The notes under the pieces: model-generated
Seen by the model: only the letters and a program-made list of their open reading frames with translations
Databases searched by the model: none
Told to the model about the DNA's origin: nothing
Shown here: piece after piece, positions 15,930-25,002 of the stretch
How positions within the stretch are numbered: the first letter of the stretch is position 1
Layout: each line of letters starts with the position of its first letter
Origin: an uncultured Prevotellaceae bacterium
GTDB lineage: Bacteria; Bacteroidota; Bacteroidia; Bacteroidales; Bacteroidaceae
Direction of reading: 5' to 3'
DNA: 34,778 nucleotides
Assembly (NCBI GenBank): GCA_947174565.1
Contig: CAMWJL010000016.1
Location: 1-34,778, forward strand
Translations under genes and position numbers: made by a program

Positions 15930-15969
15930 GCGGCACTGCTCAACCCCGTTGAGCAGTGCCGCCTTTTTT
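15930..15969 (+). terminator. Rho-independent terminator after proC
   Basis: A perfect 15-bp GC-rich stem (15930-15944 with 15948-15962, loop CCC) is followed by C and six T residues. It is the clearest intrinsic terminator in the window. Confidence 0.9.
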
Positions 15970-16001
15970 CGTGCCCTTCTTTTCCCCAGCACTCATAGCC
16001 T

Positions 16002-16076
16002 CTAAATCGATGTCCCCGACTCCGACCAATCGGAGTCGGGGACATCGGTGAATCGGAGTCGGGGACATCGATTTAG
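16002..16076. repeat. GC-rich hairpin element, copy A
   Basis: The outer arms 16002-16025 and 16053-16076 are perfect 24-base inverted repeats. Between them lies an extra copy of TCGGAGTCGGGGACATCG (16030-16047), so either of two identical units can pair with the single complementary unit. The element aligns without gaps, in reverse orientation, with copy B at about 24822-24892 and shares a short flank (GAGGCT) beyond the hairpin. It is intergenic, after the proC terminator. It may be a REP- or MITE-like element; no transposase is nearby. Confidence 0.85.
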
Positions 16077-16224
16077 GGGTGCTGTAACACCCTTTTCGGT
16101 GCATCTTCCTTGGGGCATCCCATGCTGACGGAATCGCTTCGTTCCGTCCTGTTCCCCTCTGAAGGTGGTCTCCATTCCTCAAAAAACTCCTCTTTTTTGC
16201 TTTTTTTCTTTCTCCTGCAAAAAA

Positions 16225-16248
16225 AATCCAGCTTTCTCATGCTGGATT
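16225..16248. other. Small hairpin upstream of the tRNA promoter
   Basis: AATCCAGC (16225-16232) pairs with GCTGGATT (16241-16248). It is flanked by an A-run on the left and a short T-run on the right. It could be a weak terminator insulating the tRNA gene from upstream reading. Confidence 0.35.
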
Positions 16249-16261
16249 CCCGATTTTTCCC

Positions 16262-16269
16262 TACCTTTG
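16262..16269 (+). promoter_or_regulatory. -7 box of tRNA-Leu
   Basis: TACCTTTG matches TAnnTTTG and ends 11 bases before the tRNA gene. No clear -33 TTTG is visible at 19-21 bp. Confidence 0.5.
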
Positions 16270-16280
16270 CACTCGCATTT

Positions 16281-16362
16281 GCCCCGATGGCGGAATTGGT
16301 AGACGCGTTGGTCTCAAACACCAATGAAGCAATTCGTGCCGGTTCGATCCCGGCTCGGGGTA
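16281..16362 (+). tRNA. tRNA-Leu (anticodon CAA)
   Basis: The 82-base sequence folds as a class II tRNA. The acceptor GCCCCGA pairs with TCGGGGT, including a terminal G-T pair. The anticodon stem TTGGT/ACCAA encloses the loop CTCAAAC, with anticodon CAA. The T-arm is GCCGG-TTCGATC-CCGGC (16338-16354), and the discriminator base is A. The variable arm is short for leucine tRNA. CCA is not encoded. The region downstream shows signs of rearrangement, but no duplicate of the tRNA 3' end was found in the window. Confidence 0.93.
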
Positions 16363-16369
16363 CTGAATC

Positions 16370-16396
16370 AAGGAGCAGTTTATCTGTTCCTTTTTT
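16370..16396 (+). terminator. Terminator of tRNA-Leu
   Basis: AAGGAGCAG pairs with CTGTTCCTT (one G-U pair) around a five-base loop, followed by a T-tract to 16396. Confidence 0.75.
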
Positions 16397-16419
16397 GTAT
16401 TTTATAGTTAAGTCCTGTT

Positions 16420-16710
16420 ATGATACCTTCAATCAAAGAGATAGAAATGCCGTTGTTGCAAGTTTTGGCTGAACATTCTCCTCGGACATTGGATGAATGC
16501 ACGGATGCTCTGTCGAAGCATTTTTGTCTTAGTGAGCATGAGCGTCATTTGTTAATGCCAGATGGTAAACGCCATATAATGAAGTTTCGTGTTGGCTGGG
16601 CAAAGGCAATCCTTAAAAAGGCTGGGTTCGTAAGCGCATTGTCGCGTGGGGTCTATGCGATTACAGATTTGGGGATTGAGCACTTGCGATGTGTTGGGAA
16701 ACTTGTATGA
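16420..16710 (+). CDS. Mrr N-terminal (winged-helix) domain fragment
   Basis: The 96-residue frame corresponds to the Mrr_N domain that normally precedes the nuclease domain of Mrr-type modification-dependent restriction enzymes: PLLQVLAEHSPRTLDECTDALSKHFCLSEHERHLLMPDGKRHIMKFRVGWAKAILKKAGFVSALSRGVYAITDLG. The nuclease half is missing. The stop at 16708-16710 lies directly before a remnant of another gene, so this is best read as a truncated mrr. The first 37 bases of its conserved part (16442-16478) recur at 18443-18479 with one mismatch. Whether the fragment is still expressed is unknown; no full promoter is visible after the tRNA terminator. Confidence 0.65.
   Translation: MIPSIKEIEMPLLQVLAEHSPRTLDECTDALSKHFCLSEHERHLLMPDGKRHIMKFRVGWAKAILKKAGFVSALSRGVYAITDLGIEHLRCVGKLV
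16442..16478 (+). repeat. Direct repeat A, left copy (within mrr fragment)
   Basis: This 37-base segment is repeated at 18443-18479 with a single T/G difference. Both copies stand in the same orientation and precede a DUF4492 sequence, so it marks a duplication of the region around the Fic gene. Confidence 0.85.
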
Positions 16711-16812
16711 TGTTGGCACCTGACTTTTGACCTCTACGATGACGGGTTCCGCAGCATGAGGCATGGGAGGGCATTGTGGGCTTTTCTTTTTCTCATTGTT
16801 TCTTTTTTATAG
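16711..16812 (+). pseudogene. Remnant of a DUF4492 gene
   Basis: Read from 16714 the sequence gives WHLTFDLYDDGFRSMRHGRALW, then diverges to FLIVSFL and a stop at 16810-16812. It matches the N-terminus of the intact DUF4492 protein at 18539 (WHRAFDLYYDGFRSMRLGRMLW). At DNA level 16714-16780 aligns without gaps to about 18562-18628. It has no start codon, being preceded immediately by the mrr fragment stop. It is therefore a decayed duplicate of the gene that heads the cyd operon. Confidence 0.75.
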
Positions 16813-16829
16813 CGATTGGACGAAGATTC

Positions 16830-18320
16830 TTATTTAATGATTGTCCTGTCAATGATTTGTAGTTTCGCTTGCGATGGTTCTTCGTAAGCGTTGCAGGCGG
16901 CAAGGTAGTTTTTCAATTCCGTGAAATCTGTACCGTAGAGGTTATCACTGAACTGATGGAGTTTTGTCATAACGTTTATGTATGCCAGCGGGTCTTTATG
17001 GCGCGTAAGTTTACGTAAGGCAAGGATATAATCCTCCCGAAATACCGTCGGCACAATGATGCGTGACTGGTCTGCCTTTACAAGTTCTGCATTCATCATC
17101 ACACGGGCTATACGTCCGTTTCCGTCGTTGAACGGATGCACCTCGCTTATCATGAACATCATGAAAATCGCACGTGCAAACGGGTCTGTCATGGCTGCGT
17201 AATATTTGAAACCTTGCGAGAGTGTGCCTTTCACAAGCTGATAATCGACAAACTCTGTCTGTCCAGCACGGTTGTTCTTCATTTTGAAAACACCGGGATT
17301 CATGTGTGGTCTGCCTTCGAGTAGCACGGTGTGGCGGTGACTAAGAATGGCAAACAATTCCTTTGGAGAAGTCGGAGTCCGCGTCATTTCTGCACGGTTC
17401 GACAAGATTTTGAACGTACCGAGAATGTCATGTGAATCCTCGTCACGCCGAGGCAACGGAATACCTGAGTCAACGATAGATTTTGCTTCCTCTACATCAA
17501 ATTCCGTTCCCTCGATGTAATTTGAGAAATAACTCTCAAAGAAGGAGAACAGGCGGAATGATTCTTCATCAGTATTGCGGTTGTTGCGTATGACAAAATA
17601 GTGGTCCTTTATCGCGTCGAACAGGATTTCAAACAATTCCACTCTCGAAGGGTCAAAAGGATTGCCGGCAGCGAGGGCTTTTGCGGAATCTGTTGACAAT
17701 ACTTTCGCGTCATGCGTGGATAGCAATGCCGAGATGATGCTGTTTATCTTGGCAAATTCTGTCTGCATGCCCAATTCATCGGCAACCTTTCGCAGCTCAT
17801 CACGATATTGGTTTAGTCGCTCTTCTCCGCCTGTGAGCAGAAGTTGTTCAAGCTTGTTCTCAATCACACTAATAGGCAGAACACGCGACTCGTCACCGGG
17901 CTTTCTCGACACTTGCATATTTTCAAGCATATATCTATATTCCCCGGATATATGCATACCCATAAAAGGAATATCGTAAGACGTTGCTTTAGGACCTTTG
18001 ACGAAATGAAGAGTAATTCCCGGCAAGTCAGTCACTCGCCTTGTCGTTGAGTTGGTCAAAAAGAAATCCCCTGTTGCCGTCGGACGCATCTCTTTGGCAC
18101 TGCGATGACTGATTACCGCGTCGGGATAACGGTAAACGAGTATCTCGATAAGGTTTCGGCGCACAATGTTTTCCAGACTGTCTATAAGATTGGTTGTATA
18201 GATGCGCGGCGCGACCTTACGCAGCTCACCATCCTTTTCCTTCTTGCTAAGCACACGGGAAACATTCGGATCAGATGAGCCAAAAACAACCTCTTTCAGA
18301 GTGTCAACTTTAACTGCCAT
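16830..18320 (-). CDS. Fic protein with AbiEi-like N-terminal domain
   Basis: On the ATG at 18320 the protein has 496 residues. The first 45 look like a winged helix (VDTLKEVVFGSSDPNVSRVLSKKEKDGELRKVAPRIYTT). Residues 45-115 carry an AbiEi-like segment (RRNLIEILVYRYPDAVISHRSAKEMRPT, TLHFVKGP). The C-terminal half is a Fic domain with the canonical motif HPFNDGNGRIAR, catalytic His395. The inhibitory motif S/T-x-x-x-E-G is present as SNYIEG (266-271), so it should be a class II, self-inhibited AMPylase (or related NMP transferase). The frame is open to 18485, but a -7 box at 18346-18353 excludes the longer start. It stands alone between two duplicated sequence pairs, with somewhat lower GC than neighbours, suggesting acquired DNA. 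The target protein is unknown. Confidence 0.85.
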   Translation of the reverse strand: MAVKVDTLKEVVFGSSDPNVSRVLSKKEKDGELRKVAPRIYTTNLIDSLENIVRRNLIEILVYRYPDAVISHRSAKEMRPTATGDFFLTNSTTRRVTDLPGITLHFVKGPKATSYDIPFMGMHISGEYRYMLENMQVSRKPGDESRVLPISVIENKLEQLLLTGGEERLNQYRDELRKVADELGMQTEFAKINSIISALLSTHDAKVLSTDSAKALAAGNPFDPSRVELFEILFDAIKDHYFVIRNNRNTDEESFRLFSFFESYFSNYIEGTEFDVEEAKSIVDSGIPLPRRDEDSHDILGTFKILSNRAEMTRTPTSPKELFAILSHRHTVLLEGRPHMNPGVFKMKNNRAGQTEFVDYQLVKGTLSQGFKYYAAMTDPFARAIFMMFMISEVHPFNDGNGRIARVMMNAELVKADQSRIIVPTVFREDYILALRKLTRHKDPLAYINVMTKLHQFSDNLYGTDFTELKNYLAACNAYEEPSQAKLQIIDRTIIK

Positions 18321-18345
18321 ACAAAAAATCACGATTAAGAGGACA

Positions 18346-18353
18346 CAAAGGTA
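18346..18353 (-). promoter_or_regulatory. -7 box of the Fic gene
   Basis: Minus-strand TACCTTTG matches the -7 consensus and lies 25 bases before the ATG at 18320. No -33 TTTG is seen at the usual spacing. It decides the start codon choice. Confidence 0.55.
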
Positions 18354-18442
18354 CAATTTTTTGCGATTATAACTGCCCTTTTTACAAAAAACTGAGTTTA
18401 GAGAGGGCCTGTAGGCAATTTTGCCCGTTCCAACTCGACATT

Positions 18443-18479
18443 TAGAAATGCCGTTGTTGCAAGTTTGGGCTGAACATTC
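18443..18479 (+). repeat. Direct repeat A, right copy (mrr sliver)
   Basis: A 36-of-37 match to 16442-16478. Only this sliver of mrr remains here. The sequence on both sides differs from the left copy, so the duplication endpoints can be set to within a few bases. Confidence 0.85.
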
Positions 18480-18514
18480 GTGCATCTTTTGTTGTATAGA
18501 CAGATATTTTTCTA

Positions 18515-18522
18515 TATCTTTG
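18515..18522 (+). promoter_or_regulatory. -7 box of the cyd operon
   Basis: TATCTTTG matches TAnnTTTG. A weak -33 candidate (GTTG, 18491-18494) stands 20 bp upstream. The start would be near 18527, leaving a leader of about 12 bases. Confidence 0.6.
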
Positions 18523-18538
18523 CCCGCAAAGTTGGGCG

Positions 18539-18763
18539 ATGATGAAGAAAATGAACTTTTGGCATCGGGCTTTTGACCTCTACTATGACGGGTTTCGCAG
18601 CATGAGGCTGGGGAGGATGTTGTGGGTGGTCATTCTCGTCAAGCTGTTCATTATATTCGTGGTGCTGAAGGTGTTCTTCTTCCCGAACTTCCTGAAAGAG
18701 AATGCCGAGGAGGGGGAGGAGAGTGAGTTTGTGGCGACGGAGCTGATAGAGAGGAGCGAATGA
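18539..18763 (+). CDS. DUF4492 small membrane protein of the cytochrome bd operon
   Basis: A 74-residue protein: an N-terminal amphipathic part (FWHRAFDLYYDGFRSMRLGRMLW), one hydrophobic helix (VVILVKLFIIFVVLKVFFF) and an acidic tail. DUF4492 proteins lie directly before cydA in many Bacteroidetes. By analogy to CydX, a single-helix accessory subunit, it may bind the bd oxidase in the membrane; that is inference, since sequence similarity to CydX is not evident. It precedes cydA by 42 bases. A decayed copy of its 5' half is found at 16711-16812. Confidence 0.85.
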   Translation: MMKKMNFWHRAFDLYYDGFRSMRLGRMLWVVILVKLFIIFVVLKVFFFPNFLKENAEEGEESEFVATELIERSE

Positions 18764-18805
18764 GAAGGCAATGATTTTACTATCCTAAATACAAAACCAA
18801 ACACT

Positions 18806-20386
18806 ATGAGTAACATCTTGTTAAGTATCGACGCTGGCATGATAGAGTGGTCGAGGGCGCAGTTTGCCCTGACGGCTATCTATCACTGGCTGTTTGTGCC
18901 GCTGACCTTGGGGCTGGCGGTGGTGATGGGTGTGATGGAGACGTGCTACTACCGCACCCGAAAGCCGTTTTGGAAAGATGCGGCGAAGTTTTGGCAGAAA
19001 CTCTTTGGCATCAACTTCGCCATGGGTGTCGCCACGGGCATCATCTTGGAGTTTGAGTTCGGCACGAACTGGTCGAACTATTCGTGGTTTGTAGGCGACA
19101 TCTTCGGTGCGCCGCTTGCCATCGAGGGCATCGTGGCGTTCTTCATGGAGAGTACCTTCGTGGCGGTCATGTTCTTTGGCTGGAAAAAGGTGTCGGCTGG
19201 CTTCCATTTGGCATCCACATGGCTCACGGGCTTGGGTGCAACCATTTCGGCATGGTGGATTCTGGTGGCGAACGCATGGATGCAGTACCCCGTGGGGTGT
19301 GAGTTCAACCCCGAAACGATGCGTAACGAGATGGTGTCGTTTGCCGAGGTGGCACTCTCGCCTCTTGCCATCGACAAGTTCTTCCACACGGTCATTTCTG
19401 CATGGATTATCGGCGCGGTCTTCACGGTGGCGGTCTCCTGCTGGTATCTGCTGAAAGGCAGGGAGAAGAAGTTGGCGGTGGAGAGCATCCGTATTGGCGC
19501 AATCGTGGGGCTGGTGGCATCGGTGGGTGCTGCGCTGACGGGGCATCAGTCGGCATATCGTGTGGCACAGGTGCAGCCCATGAAGTTGGCGGCAATGGAG
19601 GCACTTTACAATGGCGGCACTGACCAAAGCCTGACGGGCATTGCGCTCATCAATCCCTTCGTGCAACCCGACTACGAGAACGACGAGGAGCCGCCGATGC
19701 GGATAGCTGTTCCCTATGCGCTGTCCATCTTGGCGACCAACAATCCCCACGGCTATGTGCCTGGCATCAATGACATTCTGAATGGCTATACCCGTCCTGA
19801 CGGAACGACGGAACTCTCTGCCGGTGAGAAGATTGAGCGTGGCAAACTCGCCATCAGTGCGTTGGCTTCCTACCGTCAGATGAAGAGAGAGTATGGTGGC
19901 GGAGCGATGCTCAAGGAGCAGCTGAAAGTACTGAAGGAGAACATGCCTTACTTTGGTTACGGCTACATTCATGACAAGAGCGAGCTTGTGCCGTTCGTGC
20001 CCATCAACTTCTACGCTTTCCGTGTCATGGTGGGTGTGGGATGTCTGCTCATCCTCTTCTTCATGGTGGTGCTCTTTTTCGTCTATAAGAAAGACATCGT
20101 GGCTGCTCCGAAGTGGCTGCATTGGTCGGCTATCGCCATGCTTCCGTTGGCTTACATTGCCTCCGAGAGTGGCTGGCTTGTGGCGGAGTTTGGTCGTCAA
20201 CCTTGGACCATTCAGGATATGCTGCCCACTTGGGCGTCGGTGAGTAACCTGCACTCGTCAAGCGTGATGATTACTTTCTTCATCTTCCTCGTGCTCTTCA
20301 CCACAATGCTGGCGGTGGAGCTGAACATCATGCTGAAACAGATAAAGAAAGGGCCTGAGTACGAGAACATGAATGAATCAGTGTAG
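18806..20386 (+). CDS. cydA: Cytochrome bd quinol oxidase subunit I
   Basis: A 526-residue integral membrane subunit that binds the three haems and the quinol. Visible features are the N-terminal helix WSRAQFALTAIYHWLFVPLTLG with haem ligand His27, Glu107 in the conserved AIEGIVAFFMEST helix, His194 in KFFHTVISAW, and near the C-terminus GRQPWTIQDMLPT, which is diagnostic of CydA. The enzyme reduces O2 to water at high affinity and, in an anaerobe, chiefly scavenges oxygen while contributing to the proton gradient. It follows the DUF4492 gene and is followed by cydB after 23 bases. Confidence 0.96.
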   Translation: MSNILLSIDAGMIEWSRAQFALTAIYHWLFVPLTLGLAVVMGVMETCYYRTRKPFWKDAAKFWQKLFGINFAMGVATGIILEFEFGTNWSNYSWFVGDIFGAPLAIEGIVAFFMESTFVAVMFFGWKKVSAGFHLASTWLTGLGATISAWWILVANAWMQYPVGCEFNPETMRNEMVSFAEVALSPLAIDKFFHTVISAWIIGAVFTVAVSCWYLLKGREKKLAVESIRIGAIVGLVASVGAALTGHQSAYRVAQVQPMKLAAMEALYNGGTDQSLTGIALINPFVQPDYENDEEPPMRIAVPYALSILATNNPHGYVPGINDILNGYTRPDGTTELSAGEKIERGKLAISALASYRQMKREYGGGAMLKEQLKVLKENMPYFGYGYIHDKSELVPFVPINFYAFRVMVGVGCLLILFFMVVLFFVYKKDIVAAPKWLHWSAIAMLPLAYIASESGWLVAEFGRQPWTIQDMLPTWASVSNLHSSSVMITFFIFLVLFTTMLAVELNIMLKQIKKGPEYENMNESV

Positions 20387-20409
20387 AATCCCTATAAACC
20401 ATATCAACT

Positions 20410-21549
20410 ATGAGTTACGAAATGCTTCAGCAATACTGGTGGTTCCTCGTTTCGTTGTTAGGAGCCTTGTTGGTTCTCCTCATGTTTGTGCAGGGGGCTA
20501 ATTCCTTGGTCGGTTCTTTGGGTGGCGATGCCGAAGGCCGCCGTGTGGTCATCAATTCGACAGGTCGCAAGTGGGAGTTCACTTTCACCACGCTCGTCAC
20601 CTTCGGCGGTGCGTTTTTCGCCTCCTTCCCATTGTTTTACAGCACCTCGTTTGGCGGTGCTTATTGGCTGTGGATGGTTATCCTGTTCTCCTTCGTGTTG
20701 CAGGCGGTCAGCTACGAGTTTCAGAACAAGCTCGGCAATCTGTTGGGTGCTCGCACCTTTCAGTTCTTTCTTGTCCTCAACGGCATTTTGGGACCAGTGC
20801 TTTTGGGCGGTGCGGTCGCCACGTTCTTTGAGGGAAGCAACTTCATCGTGGAGAAGGACAACCTTACGGGCATGCAGCCTGTCATCAGCCAGTGGGCAAA
20901 TGCCTCTCACGGCTTGGATGCCCTGCTCAATCCGTGGGTGCTCGTCTTCGGCTTCGCCGTCTTCTTCTTGGCGCGCATCTTGGGCATCCTCTATGTAATG
21001 AACAATGTGGACGATGAGGACATCCGTTCTCGTGCCTCCATGCGGTTGGTGGGCAGTACCATCGCGTTCCTGCTGCTCTTTGTGACGTATCTGGTGCATC
21101 TGTTCCTGAAAGACGGCTATGCGGTGGAGCCTGCGACTGGTGAAATCTATATTGAACCATACAAGTATCTCCACAACTTCCTCGATATGTGGTACTTGCT
21201 TGTACTCCTGCTCGTAGGCGTTGTGCTGGTGCTCTATGGCATCGTCCGCACCATCATCAGCAAGACTTACATTGATGGCATTTGGCCCGTGGGTCTCGGT
21301 GTCCTGTTTACTGTGCTTGCCCTCTTGCTCTCAGCAGGTTGGAACAACACGGCGTACTATCCTTCCACTGCCGACTTGCAGTCGTCGCTCACCATCGCCA
21401 ACTCTTGCTCCAGCGAGTTCACGCTCCGCACGATGGCATACGTCAGCCTCATTATCCCCTTTGTCATTGCTTACATCATGGTTGCATGGAACAAGATAGA
21501 CAGCAAGAAGTTAGACAAGGAGGAAATCAAGACGGACGAAGCATATTAA
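20410..21549 (+). CDS. cydB: Cytochrome bd quinol oxidase subunit II
   Basis: A 379-residue polytopic membrane protein with about eight hydrophobic helices. The early segment YWWFLVSLLGALLVLLMFVQGANSLVG and the central GARTFQFFLVLNGILGPVLLGGAVATFFEGSNF are CydB-like. It forms the heterodimer with CydA in the cytoplasmic membrane. Bacteroidetes CydB proteins are often, as here, divergent from the proteobacterial type. It is the last gene of the operon and its stop codon runs into the terminator stem at 21548. Confidence 0.94.
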   Translation: MSYEMLQQYWWFLVSLLGALLVLLMFVQGANSLVGSLGGDAEGRRVVINSTGRKWEFTFTTLVTFGGAFFASFPLFYSTSFGGAYWLWMVILFSFVLQAVSYEFQNKLGNLLGARTFQFFLVLNGILGPVLLGGAVATFFEGSNFIVEKDNLTGMQPVISQWANASHGLDALLNPWVLVFGFAVFFLARILGILYVMNNVDDEDIRSRASMRLVGSTIAFLLLFVTYLVHLFLKDGYAVEPATGEIYIEPYKYLHNFLDMWYLLVLLLVGVVLVLYGIVRTIISKTYIDGIWPVGLGVLFTVLALLLSAGWNNTAYYPSTADLQSSLTIANSCSSEFTLRTMAYVSLIIPFVIAYIMVAWNKIDSKKLDKEEIKTDEAY

Positions 21550-21591
21550 ACAAAAAGGCGTGAGTTCAATCGAACTCACGCCTTTTTGTTT
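21548..21591. terminator. Bidirectional terminator between cydB and the outer-membrane protein gene
   Basis: A 20-bp perfect stem (21548-21567 with 21572-21591) has a 4-base loop and A/T-rich ends, giving a T-tract on both strands. It serves the two converging transcripts. Confidence 0.9.
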
Positions 21592-21601
21592 TCCCTTTCG
21601 T

Positions 21602-24475
21602 TCACTTCTTGAACTTGCTGAACGTGTATTGCACGTGCAGCATGGCGTAGCGCGAGATGACGTTGTAGTAGGTCTCCGTTCTCCCCTGCGCGTTGATGCT
21701 CCTGCGGATGTTGCTCAGGTTTCCCAGCAGGTCGAATCCGTCCGCCATGAGCAGGAGTCTCCCCTTCATGAGCCGCTTGGTGAGGCGCGCGTTCCATATC
21801 AGGTCGTTGGTGTTCATGCCCCCGTCCGAGTATCCCCTGCGGCTGTACATGGTGATGTCGGTGGACAGGCGCAGGTTGCCCGGAAGCTCGATGTTCGCCG
21901 TCAGGCCGTAGTCGAAGTCGCAGGCGTTGACGGGGACGAAGTCCTCGCGCTCGCTCCCCGAGTGCGTGTAGTGCAGGTTGCCCTTCGTCCCGAAGGTGTG
22001 CCTGTCCCACAGGCGGTAGTCCATCCTCAGCATCGCATTGGTGTAGAGCGTGCCCACGGTGCTCCTTGCCGCCACAGTCTTTCCGGCCCCACCGTCCGAG
22101 ACGCCTATCATGTCAACGCTGTTGTAGTACACGGCGGAGGCTGACGTGCCGAGTGTCAGCCGGTGCGGCCTGTCCAGCGGGCAGCTGTATCCACCGTGGA
22201 TGTCGGCGTTCCAGTTGCCGTCCACGTTCTGCGGCGTGATGTTCCTGACGCCCGTCTCCCTGTCATAGACATACCCCATGGCGAGGCTGTTGCTGGTGGA
22301 GGCGCATGACACGCCCGCATTGTACGAGCGCTGCCCCGACAGGTCGCTGCGCACGTTGAGGGAGAGGCTGTGCCTGTAGCCTGCCGAGAGGCCGGGGTTT
22401 CCCGTGAAGATGTTCAGCGGGTCGCTGGTGTCGCTCAGCGGGATCATGTTCACCAGCGAGTGGGTGATGGCGCTGCCGCTGTAGTTCAGCTCGTAGTTGC
22501 GGCTGTGCTCCTTGTATTTCAGTTCCACCCTCGGCTCGAAGAACCACCAGTGCCTGTTCACCCGGGTGGAGAAGCTCTCGCGGCTGTAATCGAGGCGGTT
22601 GACATAGCCGTTGACGGGAAGGTCGAGATAGAGGCTGAAATTCCTGTTTTTATGATTGTTGAAATAAACGTCCGCACCGACAGTGTGCCTTTGGTTGTGC
22701 ATGTCCTGCCATGAGCTGTTCGCGTTGTCCGTCACGGTGAGCAGCTCTGCCATGGACGGGAGCATGCCGAGTCCCGCCGTTTCCCCCCATTCTTCGAGCT
22801 GGTGCAGCAGGTACCTCCTGTCGTGGCTTCTGCCCCATGTCGCAGTGTAGTTATAGTGTGGCATCACGTCAAGTGAGTGTTTCTCAAATTCCTTACGTAT
22901 TGATTTTCGGATTTTCCCTGACAGGGTGTGCGACTCGTCCCCCCTGTCCATGTAGTTGTTCCTGAACACGGGAGCGCGTTCCCCTTGCGAGGGGAAGTCG
23001 AGGTTGTAGTGCTCGAAGTCCTTGCTTGCCGAGTTGGAATAGCTGTAACCGAAGAATGTATATGTGCGGATGTTGTCCAGTATGTTTATGTCAGGACTAA
23101 AACTTATGTGCGTATATAAAGAGTGTCCCGTCCTCTTGTTCTCGGTCATGAGGCGGTTGATGCCCTTGGAGAAGAGCAGGCTCCCCGCCTGTGGCGACGT
23201 GATGCTGTCCACCCAGTCCTTGCCCAAGGCGGAGGTCACATTCTCGCCGAACAATGCGGAGGCATAACGGGAGTGACGGTCGAACTTGTTGTATGTCAAC
23301 GTCGGAGAAAGACTCACGGCGCTTAAGAACCCTGTCATCACGGCAAACCTTGCATTGTGGTTGGTACGAAGCGATATGTCGCGGCTGTGTGCGGTGTGGA
23401 AGGAGTTCTGGAACGTGTTGCCCCCTGTCAGGTAGTTCTCGCGGAGCGAGGTCGTCTCCGTGTCCTTGCTCGTGTGGGAGAAATCGACGGAGCCACTGGC
23501 GCGGATGCTCTTATCCTTGTTCTCCGCCTCATACCTGATGCCTGCCAGCGTGTTGGTGGGCACGCCGTCGCCCGCGCTCTGCGGATTCCAGTTCCCCCTG
23601 TCGCCCGGCTTCGCTATGTCGTTCAGGTTGTTCGTGTTCACATATGCGTTTGCCATCGCGCGCTCCGCCATGCCAAGGATGAAGGCGCGCGCCATGAAGC
23701 GCCGGTCGGTTCCCGCGCCTGCTTCCGCATTGGCGATGACGCTGTTGAGATACTCGTTCTTGAGGTTCACGTCCATCACGTAGTCTTTGTCCAAAGGCCG
23801 CGCCGGGCCACCGTCCGTCTCATAGACCTTGATGTTCTTCACGGTGAAGTACGGCAGGTTCTCCAGGATGAGCTGCCTGTTGTTGTTGAACATGCGCCTG
23901 CCCTGCAGCAGGAGCTGGTCAATCTTCCGGCCGTTGATGAGTATCTCGCCGTTTTCCCTCAGCTCCGCTCCCGGCAGCTGGCGTATCAGGTCGTCGAGCA
24001 TCGAGCCTTCGGGCAGCTTGAATTCCGATGCGTCATAGACGAGGGTGTCGCCTTTGTAGTAGAACTTGAGCCTTGTTGCCGTAACCGTCACCTCGGACAG
24101 CTCCATGTCCCATGCAGGTTTTGGCGGGGCTTTCTTCAGGTAGATGACGGGCAGCGGCTCTTTCGTCTTCAGTTTGATGGGGACGGTCAGCGTGTGGTAG
24201 TCGGGGTGGGAGATTCTTAAAAGATACTCGCTGCCTCGGGGATAACGCCCTCTAAACATGAAGCCGCCGTCTCTCCCGTCCATGTTCTTTCTGATGCTCT
24301 GCACCGAGTCGATGACGTTGTGCTCCATGTCCATCCTGACCACCCATGCGCTGTCAATCGGTGCGCGGGTGATTAAGTCCGCTATATGGCCATATACCAT
24401 AAATGTGACGGAACTCTGTCCCATGGCGGTGCATGAGGCATACAAACACAATAAGAGAGAAAAGATACGAGACAT
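21602..24475 (-). CDS. TonB-receptor-like outer-membrane beta-barrel protein
   Basis: From the ATG at 24475 the protein has 957 residues. It has a signal peptide (SRIFSLLLCLYASCTAMGQ), a carboxypeptidase-regulatory-like domain in the first 120 residues (VTFMVYGHIADLITRAPIDSAWV), then a plug-like region (VTVTATRLKFYYKGDTLVYDAS, LDDLIRQLPGAELRENGEILINGRKI), then about 650 residues of beta-barrel ending in YAMLHVQYTFSKFKK. Such proteins resemble TonB-dependent receptors but often stand without a SusD partner, as here. The transported substrate cannot be told. The frame extends upstream to 24547, but only the later ATG puts the signal peptide at the N-terminus. The gene seems somewhat GC-richer than cydB beside it. 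Confidence 0.85.
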   Translation of the reverse strand: MSRIFSLLLCLYASCTAMGQSSVTFMVYGHIADLITRAPIDSAWVVRMDMEHNVIDSVQSIRKNMDGRDGGFMFRGRYPRGSEYLLRISHPDYHTLTVPIKLKTKEPLPVIYLKKAPPKPAWDMELSEVTVTATRLKFYYKGDTLVYDASEFKLPEGSMLDDLIRQLPGAELRENGEILINGRKIDQLLLQGRRMFNNNRQLILENLPYFTVKNIKVYETDGGPARPLDKDYVMDVNLKNEYLNSVIANAEAGAGTDRRFMARAFILGMAERAMANAYVNTNNLNDIAKPGDRGNWNPQSAGDGVPTNTLAGIRYEAENKDKSIRASGSVDFSHTSKDTETTSLRENYLTGGNTFQNSFHTAHSRDISLRTNHNARFAVMTGFLSAVSLSPTLTYNKFDRHSRYASALFGENVTSALGKDWVDSITSPQAGSLLFSKGINRLMTENKRTGHSLYTHISFSPDINILDNIRTYTFFGYSYSNSASKDFEHYNLDFPSQGERAPVFRNNYMDRGDESHTLSGKIRKSIRKEFEKHSLDVMPHYNYTATWGRSHDRRYLLHQLEEWGETAGLGMLPSMAELLTVTDNANSSWQDMHNQRHTVGADVYFNNHKNRNFSLYLDLPVNGYVNRLDYSRESFSTRVNRHWWFFEPRVELKYKEHSRNYELNYSGSAITHSLVNMIPLSDTSDPLNIFTGNPGLSAGYRHSLSLNVRSDLSGQRSYNAGVSCASTSNSLAMGYVYDRETGVRNITPQNVDGNWNADIHGGYSCPLDRPHRLTLGTSASAVYYNSVDMIGVSDGGAGKTVAARSTVGTLYTNAMLRMDYRLWDRHTFGTKGNLHYTHSGSEREDFVPVNACDFDYGLTANIELPGNLRLSTDITMYSRRGYSDGGMNTNDLIWNARLTKRLMKGRLLLMADGFDLLGNLSNIRRSINAQGRTETYYNVISRYAMLHVQYTFSKFKK

Positions 24476-24569
24476 AGGTTTTGTGGTTTTTGGTGAATAA
24501 TTTGTTTGTCGGTTTGTAAAAAGCCTGGTTAATAGGCTCAGTGTCAATCCATAGAGAACTTTCTCGGCA

Positions 24570-24577
24570 CAAATGTA
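24570..24577 (-). promoter_or_regulatory. -7 box of the outer-membrane protein gene
   Basis: Minus-strand TACATTTG fits TAnnTTTG. The leader to the ATG at 24475 would be about 90 bases. No convincing -33 box. Confidence 0.4.
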
Positions 24578-24821
24578 AGCATATTCCCATAAAATCCCTC
24601 ACAGAAACGCCATTAAATTTACCCCCCCTAATTTTTAACTGTCGTTAACTCTTTTTTACCCTAAAATGCACTTTTTTGCATGGATTTGAGCGCAGGACAC
24701 ATGGACCGCCTTGTTCAACCGCAAGCCCGACATCAGGAAAAGCATCTTGGCAGTTGTCGGGGTGGAACATCTGAGATTGGCAGGATTGGCGGAAGGCTGT
24801 AACCGCACTAAAAGCGCATCA

Positions 24822-24892
24822 AAATCGGAGTCCCCGACTCCGACGAACCGATGTCCCCGACTCCGACCGACCGATGTCGGGGACTCCGATTT
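24822..24892. repeat. GC-rich hairpin element, copy B
   Basis: The outer arms 24822-24838 and 24876-24892 are perfect 17-base inverted repeats. Inside stands a second unit CGATGTCCCCGACTCCGA (24850-24867). Aligned to copy A (reverse orientation) it has the same order and spacing of units, with paired changes in both arms that keep the pairing. The left unit here, TCGGAGTC-CCC-GACTCCGA, can also fold on itself. Intergenic, between the outer-membrane protein gene and the oxidoreductase operon. Confidence 0.85.
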
Positions 24893-25002
24893 GGAGGCTG
24901 TGGAAGCGTGCCACAAATAAAAACGGATGGGGCGATGCGGAAAGCAAGATTATGCGTCGCGTCGCCCCATCCGTTTTATTCGGGGAGTGATGAAATAGTG
25001 TC
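24893..25002 (-). terminator. Terminator region after the oxidoreductase operon
   Basis: AAAACGGATGGGGCGA (24920-24935) pairs perfectly with TCGCCCCATCCGTTTT (24962-24977), with a 26-base interior that has a small stem of its own. On the minus strand the stem ends in a T-rich sequence, as expected for a terminator of the operon ending at 25003. Confidence 0.75.

Follow-up and report, generated by a model that had tools for sequence, protein, structure and literature searches.

Paired intergenic hairpins in an uncultured Prevotellaceae genome as probable members of a genus-specific family of three-dyad repeats

Contig CAMWJL010000016.1 of an uncultured Prevotellaceae bacterium carries two closely similar intergenic hairpins, here called copy A and copy B, and the question that they raise is why two structures at separate places on one contig should be so alike. 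The stretch analysed, all 34,778 nucleotides of this contig and referred to below as the window, is contig C16 of a source genome of 2.81 Mb that is 98% complete (G000). An earlier, sequence-only reading took base changes that compensate one another on the two arms to mean that the folded form is maintained, and its leading ideas were a mobile element related to repetitive extragenic palindromic (REP) sequences or miniature inverted-repeat transposable elements (MITEs), moved by a transposase encoded elsewhere, or a structured RNA. The answer preferred here, with a probability of roughly 0.7, is that both hairpins belong to a family of short non-coding repeats that is specific to the genus and resembles MITEs and REPINs (paired REP sequences that form hairpins); its members would be spread and overwritten by a putative enzyme.

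The two copies and their family

Each copy is built of three units, all of them 17-bp inverted repeats of the form CG-nn-GTC-CCC-GAC-nn-CG with a 9-bp word, GTC-CCC-GAC, at the centre; in both copies the units are 23 bp apart (Table 1). Much of what had been described for the pair is borne out. The copies align without gaps, together with a shared flank (AGAGGCT/GGAGGCT); each has two same-oriented units and one reversed unit (words at 16012, 16035 and 16058, and at 24830, 24853 and 24876); both same-orientation units of copy A can pair with the third (inverted repeats of 27 and 18 nt); and the outer doublets of copies A and B differ on both arms with pairing kept. Copy A, read on the minus strand in its two-left-one-right orientation, runs from AAATCG to CGATTT.

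The expectation that further copies exist in the genome is also confirmed. The exact family pattern (a word, a gap of 11-17 bp, a second word, a gap of 8-20 bp and the reversed word) matches 96 times in G000, with no match for the reversed control, and describes a dispersed, maintained, mostly intergenic palindromic element. Although the pattern allows wider gaps, all 192 neighbouring-word distances at the 96 fetched loci (96 triplets and 4 lone words; fetched loci are given L numbers below) are 23 bp. With one mismatch allowed, the loose pattern for this word, F1, counts 116 triplets, 99 of which were read. Among 97 copies with at most two mismatches, a recount gives 83 with none, 12 with one and 2 with two, a tally that stops at two, copies with three mismatches being only partly in the list. 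In an alignment of 94 copies, which omits L014, at the start of a contig, and L083 and L133, in each of which one edge CG has changed, and includes L246 in addition, the foot of the stem reads AAAT/ATTT or differs from it only slightly, and the element is bounded by the short inverted edges AAATCG/CGATTT. Variation lies mainly in the linkers and in six two-letter half-sites per element (h1-h6), which read GA or AT in 560 of 570 cases. Two half-site classes dominate, GA GA AT GA GA AT and AT AT GA AT AT GA. One locus, L001, departs from the usual unit order.

For placement, genes were called with a hexamer-based gene caller. The 96 copies occupy 47 tandem, 25 convergent and 16 divergent gaps; 7 lie at a contig edge and 1 overlaps a gene call. 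For comparison, 67 other gaps, each 150 bp or longer, divide into 40 tandem, 9 convergent and 18 divergent ones. Within tandem gaps, 35 of 47 copies are nearer the 3' end of the upstream gene, and orientation relative to transcription shows no bias (26 versus 21).

The twin of the copy B region at L117 comprises copy B and 265 bp of its left flank, and its right edge is the edge of the element. In the sister species, G008, the orthologous locus L172 aligns with the window arrangement at copy B over 3043 bp; since the sister species has this arrangement, it is probably older than the L117 twin.

The same family is found in the sister species, in which 61 exact copies (94 with the loose pattern; 50-53 elements were read) stand against none for the control. 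Many element loci are common to the two species although the flanking DNA has diverged. In 32 strict ortholog pairs (a looser set of 44 displayed pairs included mispairings), ungapped positions differ in 37% of cases in the flanks, 21% in the linkers and 8% in the half-sites. Of the 32 core pairs, 7 show no difference; the differences are confined to the linkers in 12, concern half-sites in 6 and unit orientation in 2, and in the remaining 5 one 14-nt segment between words is the exact reverse complement of its counterpart. The eight CG positions that the search leaves free differ in 0 of 256 comparisons, and the outer AAATCG/CGATTT edges in 14 of 384.

Table 1. Features of the window that belong to, or adjoin, copies A and B
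Feature	Position	Strand	Remarks
Copy A, element core, 71 bp	16004..16074	-	three inverted repeats of 17 bp, pitch 23 bp; orientation on minus strand C-C-G; 0 mismatches to family pattern
Copy A, unit 1	16054..16070	-	CGATGTC-CCC-GACTCCG; word 16058-16066
Copy A, unit 2	16031..16047	-	word 16035-16043
Copy A, unit 3	16008..16024	-	reverse orientation; word 16012-16020
E1-type flank of copy A (..AGCCTCT)	15990..16003	+	part of longer element; flank profile over 95 copies; motif recurs in other species
Copy B, element core, 71 bp	24822..24892	+	architecture as copy A; 0 mismatches to family pattern
Copy B, unit 1	24826..24842	+	perfect 7-3-7 palindrome; word 24830-24838
Copy B, unit 2	24849..24865	+	word 24853-24861
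Copy B, unit 3	24872..24888	+	reverse orientation; word 24876-24884
E1-type flank of copy B (GGAGGCTGTGGAAGCG..)	24893..24915	-	flank profile over 95 copies; motif recurs in other species
341-bp stretch ending at copy B edge	24557..24897		twin 99.4% identical (342 aligned columns) at G000:C34, L117
tRNA-Leu(CAA)	16281..16363		beside copy A
Fic-domain protein gene	16833..18485		follows the tRNA gene, on the other strand

Beside copy A are a tRNA gene and then, on the other strand, a gene for a Fic-domain protein. Elsewhere in the genome, a second kind of dispersed sequence, about 80-100 bp long, occurs near the elements at L064, L073, L109, L145, L151, L076 and L138; we take it to resemble a Bacteroidales promoter by its -7 motif. 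Repeats with apparent 69-bp offsets, which perhaps code for leucine-rich repeats, adjoin L108, L111, L123 and L136, and their spacing is probably a coincidence of length.

Relatives, other words and in-frame copies

In the family, 5 of 399 genomes have the F1 pattern with one mismatch, and all five belong to the source genus; the reversed control gave two matches, in one genome (G324). Similarity queries, in which at most 19-20 candidates per genome were scored, together place relatives of the element in 20 of 45 genomes of the genus. These relatives have a common architecture of three units at 23-bp pitch with CG ends and A-rich and T-rich edges. It is the 9-bp word, which is lineage-specific, that differs: alongside F1 (GTC-CCC-GAC) there are F2 (GTC-GTC-GAC), F3 (GTG-CCC-CAC), F4 (CCC-CTC-GGG) and F5 (CCC-GAC-GGG), as well as GTG-AGA-CAC, and several words can coexist within one genome. 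Word tallies come from a relaxed scan, as a strict Watson-Crick scan misses F2 units of the GACATC type. Two loci in G011 (L315 and L341) have four units, among the few departures from three, and one in G006 (L241) is a single-unit version with similar flanks on both sides.

The flanks of the relatives extend the pattern outward. Among 36 elements of other species, CCTC lies 5, 28 and 51 bp to the left of the core in 28, 12 and 8 cases, and GAGG lies at the same distances to the right in 21, 12 and 7. Self-identity of these flanks is 0.374 at a lag of 23; at the remaining lags in the tested range of 8-35 it is 0.23-0.31. In other species, two more repeats in the 23-bp phase thus lie in the flank on either side of the core, so that the element as a whole is a phased array of about 170-200 bp. 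In the flanks of G000, CAC recurs at 11 bp (74 of 190) and at 34 bp (45 of 190).

A search of viral contigs, plasmids and phages for the F1 element gave no matches. Pair patterns of three other words picked out 20 viral stretches, none of which was judged on inspection to be a member of the family.

Some relatives of the element lie within genes. A glycerate kinase match was found in 33 genomes, and 30 loci were fetched and aligned; in 13 of these the element is read in frame, in a loop that is free of it in the other 17 (PF02595 was confirmed for two of the 13 insert-bearing proteins). As three times 23 bp makes 23 codons, the core keeps the reading frame; the insert in the protein is 25-30 residues long. 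The word at this single site varies between species, being F1 in G007 and G012, F2 in eight genomes, F3 in G011 and G017, and F5 in G036. A tree of the gene, computed after removal of the insert, places G036 and G017 among the F2 genomes (support 99; G017 nested at 93). The word found in the glycerate kinase also occurs at another locus that was read in 12 of the 13 genomes, the exception being G044. Both G036 and G017 have at least 19 further places that resemble their own element, and the exact word occupies all three units in 5 and 4, respectively, of the fetched places. Alleles that have no element are too divergent to define an insertion junction. Altogether, 17 of 227 elements lie inside an open reading frame, namely the 13 glycerate kinases, L222, L223, L239 and the weakly scored L197, which was not counted. 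L222 (G044) is in frame between the carrier and reductase domains of an AMP-binding/carrier/reductase protein, L223 (G044) is in frame within or next to the CbiJ portion of a protein that fuses CbiJ and CbiD, and L239 (G042) is in frame between the receiver and sigma-54 domains of a response regulator; all three reading frames have Pfam domains.

Half-sites were also compared across genomes. G000 has GA at 293 of 594 half-sites and G008 at 165 of 318, whereas in six other genomes, represented by 20 F1 elements, GA occurs at 0 of 120. Taken together, the spread of GA and the differing words at one site suggest that new variants have spread over existing loci, that is, concerted evolution of a REPIN/MITE-like repeat.

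These observations also bear on the idea that the elements are arrays of binding sites owned by the host. In such a model, the dyad triplets would bind a dimeric chromosomal protein (a nucleoid organiser or global regulator) in phase, purifying selection would hold them constant, and the words would co-evolve with the protein. The rigid 23-bp pitch and dyad symmetry, the scarcity of decayed copies, the many loci in common with the sister species and the unchanged CG positions that could be observed freely are all compatible with this. It is harder to reconcile with copies inside genes of relatives (the glycerate kinase and three more), with matches in just 20 of 45 genomes of the genus, with several word families in one genome and with whole-word differences at one fixed site, and the model is considered unlikely.

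Pairing, covariation and transcription

Copies A and B each fold better than 200 of 200 shuffles (as RNA, z is -7.5 for the minus strand of A and -5.8 for the plus strand of B), and both are adjoined by inverted repeats that, judged by eye and unscored, look like terminators. A structured RNA or a bidirectional transcription terminator, acting as a hairpin in transcripts at gene ends, would account for such stable folds, for the AAAT/ATTT edges and for the placement nearer 3' ends. The earlier reading had taken the compensating changes as a sign that the outer hairpin is maintained, and these lose their force once the whole family is considered. The outermost half-sites match (h1=h6) in only 15 of 94 copies, where 45.5 would be expected if they were independent; copies A and B both happen to belong to the 15. 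Corresponding figures in G008 are 8 of 50 against 23.1. Because the outermost half-sites differ in most copies, the outer arms mispair there; among 62 distinct sequences, the two outermost variable pairs of the outer-arm structure are broken in 28 and 48. Changes on both sides are not above shuffles for this structure (53 cells versus 50.3; 3 pairs versus 4.1). Its covariation score, 0.089 versus 0.069, does exceed 500 of 500 shuffles, and remains high because of the inner variable pairs; given the mismatch between h1 and h6, covariation of the outer arms was rejected as evidence of structure.

What is kept in most copies is a different structure, in which unit 1 forms its own hairpin and units 2 and 3 pair with each other (h1=h2 in 80 of 94, h3=h6 in 83 of 94). 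For this structure the percentage paired and the covariation score are above all shuffles, which is a point for the RNA or terminator model, and pairs changed on both sides are not (6 versus 5.7). The structure scores high because both dominant classes allow it. When the copies are reduced to 19 distinct codes, agreement is weak (h1=h2 in 10, h3=h6 in 12 and the third pair in 4), and the high scores largely reflect the contrast between two classes and were not counted as independent evidence of a selected fold.

Apart from covariation that comes mostly from two classes, a role in transcripts is at odds with the lack of orientation bias to transcription, with the 16 placements between divergent genes and with the in-frame copies inside conserved genes of relatives; at the gathering threshold, Rfam gives only a tRNA in the window. 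A structured RNA or terminator as the basis of the family is therefore regarded as quite unlikely. A terminator role is conceivable for single copies, and the placement and the in-frame copies argue against it as the function of the family.

Known repeats and the favoured mechanism

A literature search, with many journals outside its coverage, found no published description of the element. The closest known systems are REPINs, the Rickettsia palindromic elements (RPEs) and the 23-nt BrickBuilt repeats of Porphyromonas. Like the REPs and REPINs of Pseudomonas and Escherichia coli, the family comprises about 100 palindromic intergenic copies near 3' ends, with several families possible per genome, long-term maintenance and some copies in genes. 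Unlike REPs, which are single or paired, the element has three dyads at 23-bp pitch. It also differs from REPINs moved by REP-associated tyrosine transposases (RAYTs): the stem foot in the 94-copy alignment lacks the GTAG or CGTC tag that is the rule for REPs in the available text of PMC3733652, G000 has no Y1 transposase and differing words occupy one site.

Could the elements nevertheless be REPINs whose RAYT/Y1 transposase has been lost, or was not assembled, in G000? In copy number, in intergenic 3' bias and in having several lineage-specific families, they resemble REPINs as the accessible portions of PMC8049555 and PMC3733652 present them, REPINs persist in E. coli genomes that have no RAYT gene (PMC8049555, in the same portions), and an assembly that is 98% complete could have missed a gene. 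However, the proposal that a Y1 transposase moves the element finds no counterpart in the gene content. Y1_Tnp (PF01797) has no match in G000 and no match over the cut-off in 16 of the 20 element-bearing genomes. Carriers of the enzyme and of the element do not coincide within the genus either, since of the eight genomes with strong full-length Y1 matches six have no element match and two (G006 and G016) have few. With no REP tag at the stem foot as well, a lost RAYT is highly improbable.

The RPEs, along with CGTC-tagged REPs, offer a parallel for palindromic inserts read in frame inside conserved genes (PMC3733652, in part). Compared by description, RPEs have another architecture, and here one glycerate kinase site holds different word families across species. 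BrickBuilt of Porphyromonas gingivalis, as far as the available text of PMC4596501 describes it, resembles the element in its 23-nt pitch without spacers, in CCTC within the unit consensus, in its intergenic location, in its long stem-loops and in its occurrence in Bacteroidales. It differs in being a minisatellite-MITE of 19 copies, with direct repeats of variable number that reach about 1 kb, and in having a leader, a tail and ends like those of IS5 insertion sequences, with no fixed three-dyad core mentioned in that text. By eye, without alignment, the BrickBuilt unit shows no obvious match to the element. The 188-bp PINSR repeat of Prevotella intermedia is also intergenic (177-184 copies) and clade-specific, with about three-quarters of its sites common to strains and a mover that is not known; it is set apart by its description, which in the available part of PMC4755523 reports no terminal inverted repeats.

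For the family as a whole, a model can be proposed in which a putative trans-acting enzyme spreads the copies and, more often, makes one copy overwrite another. What such an enzyme recognizes might be the dyad symmetry of the word, or a hairpin with a 3-nt loop that the word forms as a single strand. Variants could spread by re-insertion at the same site, by gene conversion or by enzyme-driven replacement, and the exact inversions between two opposed words would fit recombination or template switching in hairpins inside the element. Selection would mainly remove copies that damage genes, leaving the intergenic ones and those in frame in loops or linkers. A more radical and tentative version is that this is a new kind of selfish repeat, one that spreads mainly by replacing copies already in place: a non-Y1 enzyme would read the triple dyad by its geometry (7-3-7, 23-bp pitch) and rewrite the word in place, so that locations stay fixed while the copies of a genome, including ancient in-frame ones, converge on a new word.

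Several points weigh against the reading of the family as mobile and overwritten. No moving or converting enzyme was identified, no cognate insertion sequence having been sought and the neighbouring genes having had no systematic survey for an autonomous copy; with neither a mover nor a clean empty site with a target duplication, mobility is only inferred. Invariant cores could also result from purifying selection exerted by a host DNA-binding protein. The comparison with the sister species covers loci that have an element in both, and 27 of the 35 fixed core positions are imposed by the requirement for exact words in both species. At the glycerate kinase site, several nodes of the tree are weak and four insert-free orthologs fall inside the wider insert-bearing clade. 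F1 and F2 differ in the central triplet only, and ordinary substitution may account for some of the changes of word. In G000 and G008 the flanks show the 23-bp phase weakly (lag-23 identity of 0.275 and 0.270), words other than F1 were searched within the genus only, and tallies outside these two genomes come from 1-9 loci per genome.

Bacterial repeats are usually viewed as relatives of transposons or as binding sites. Here, shared positions that carry different genome-wide words amount to a natural experiment, which makes concerted evolution of short bacterial repeats testable. The 23-bp pitch that the family has in common with BrickBuilt of Porphyromonas hints, by analogy, at machinery that may be Bacteroidales-wide, and the 7-3-7 dyads with this pitch provide a signature with which to hunt for the missing enzyme.

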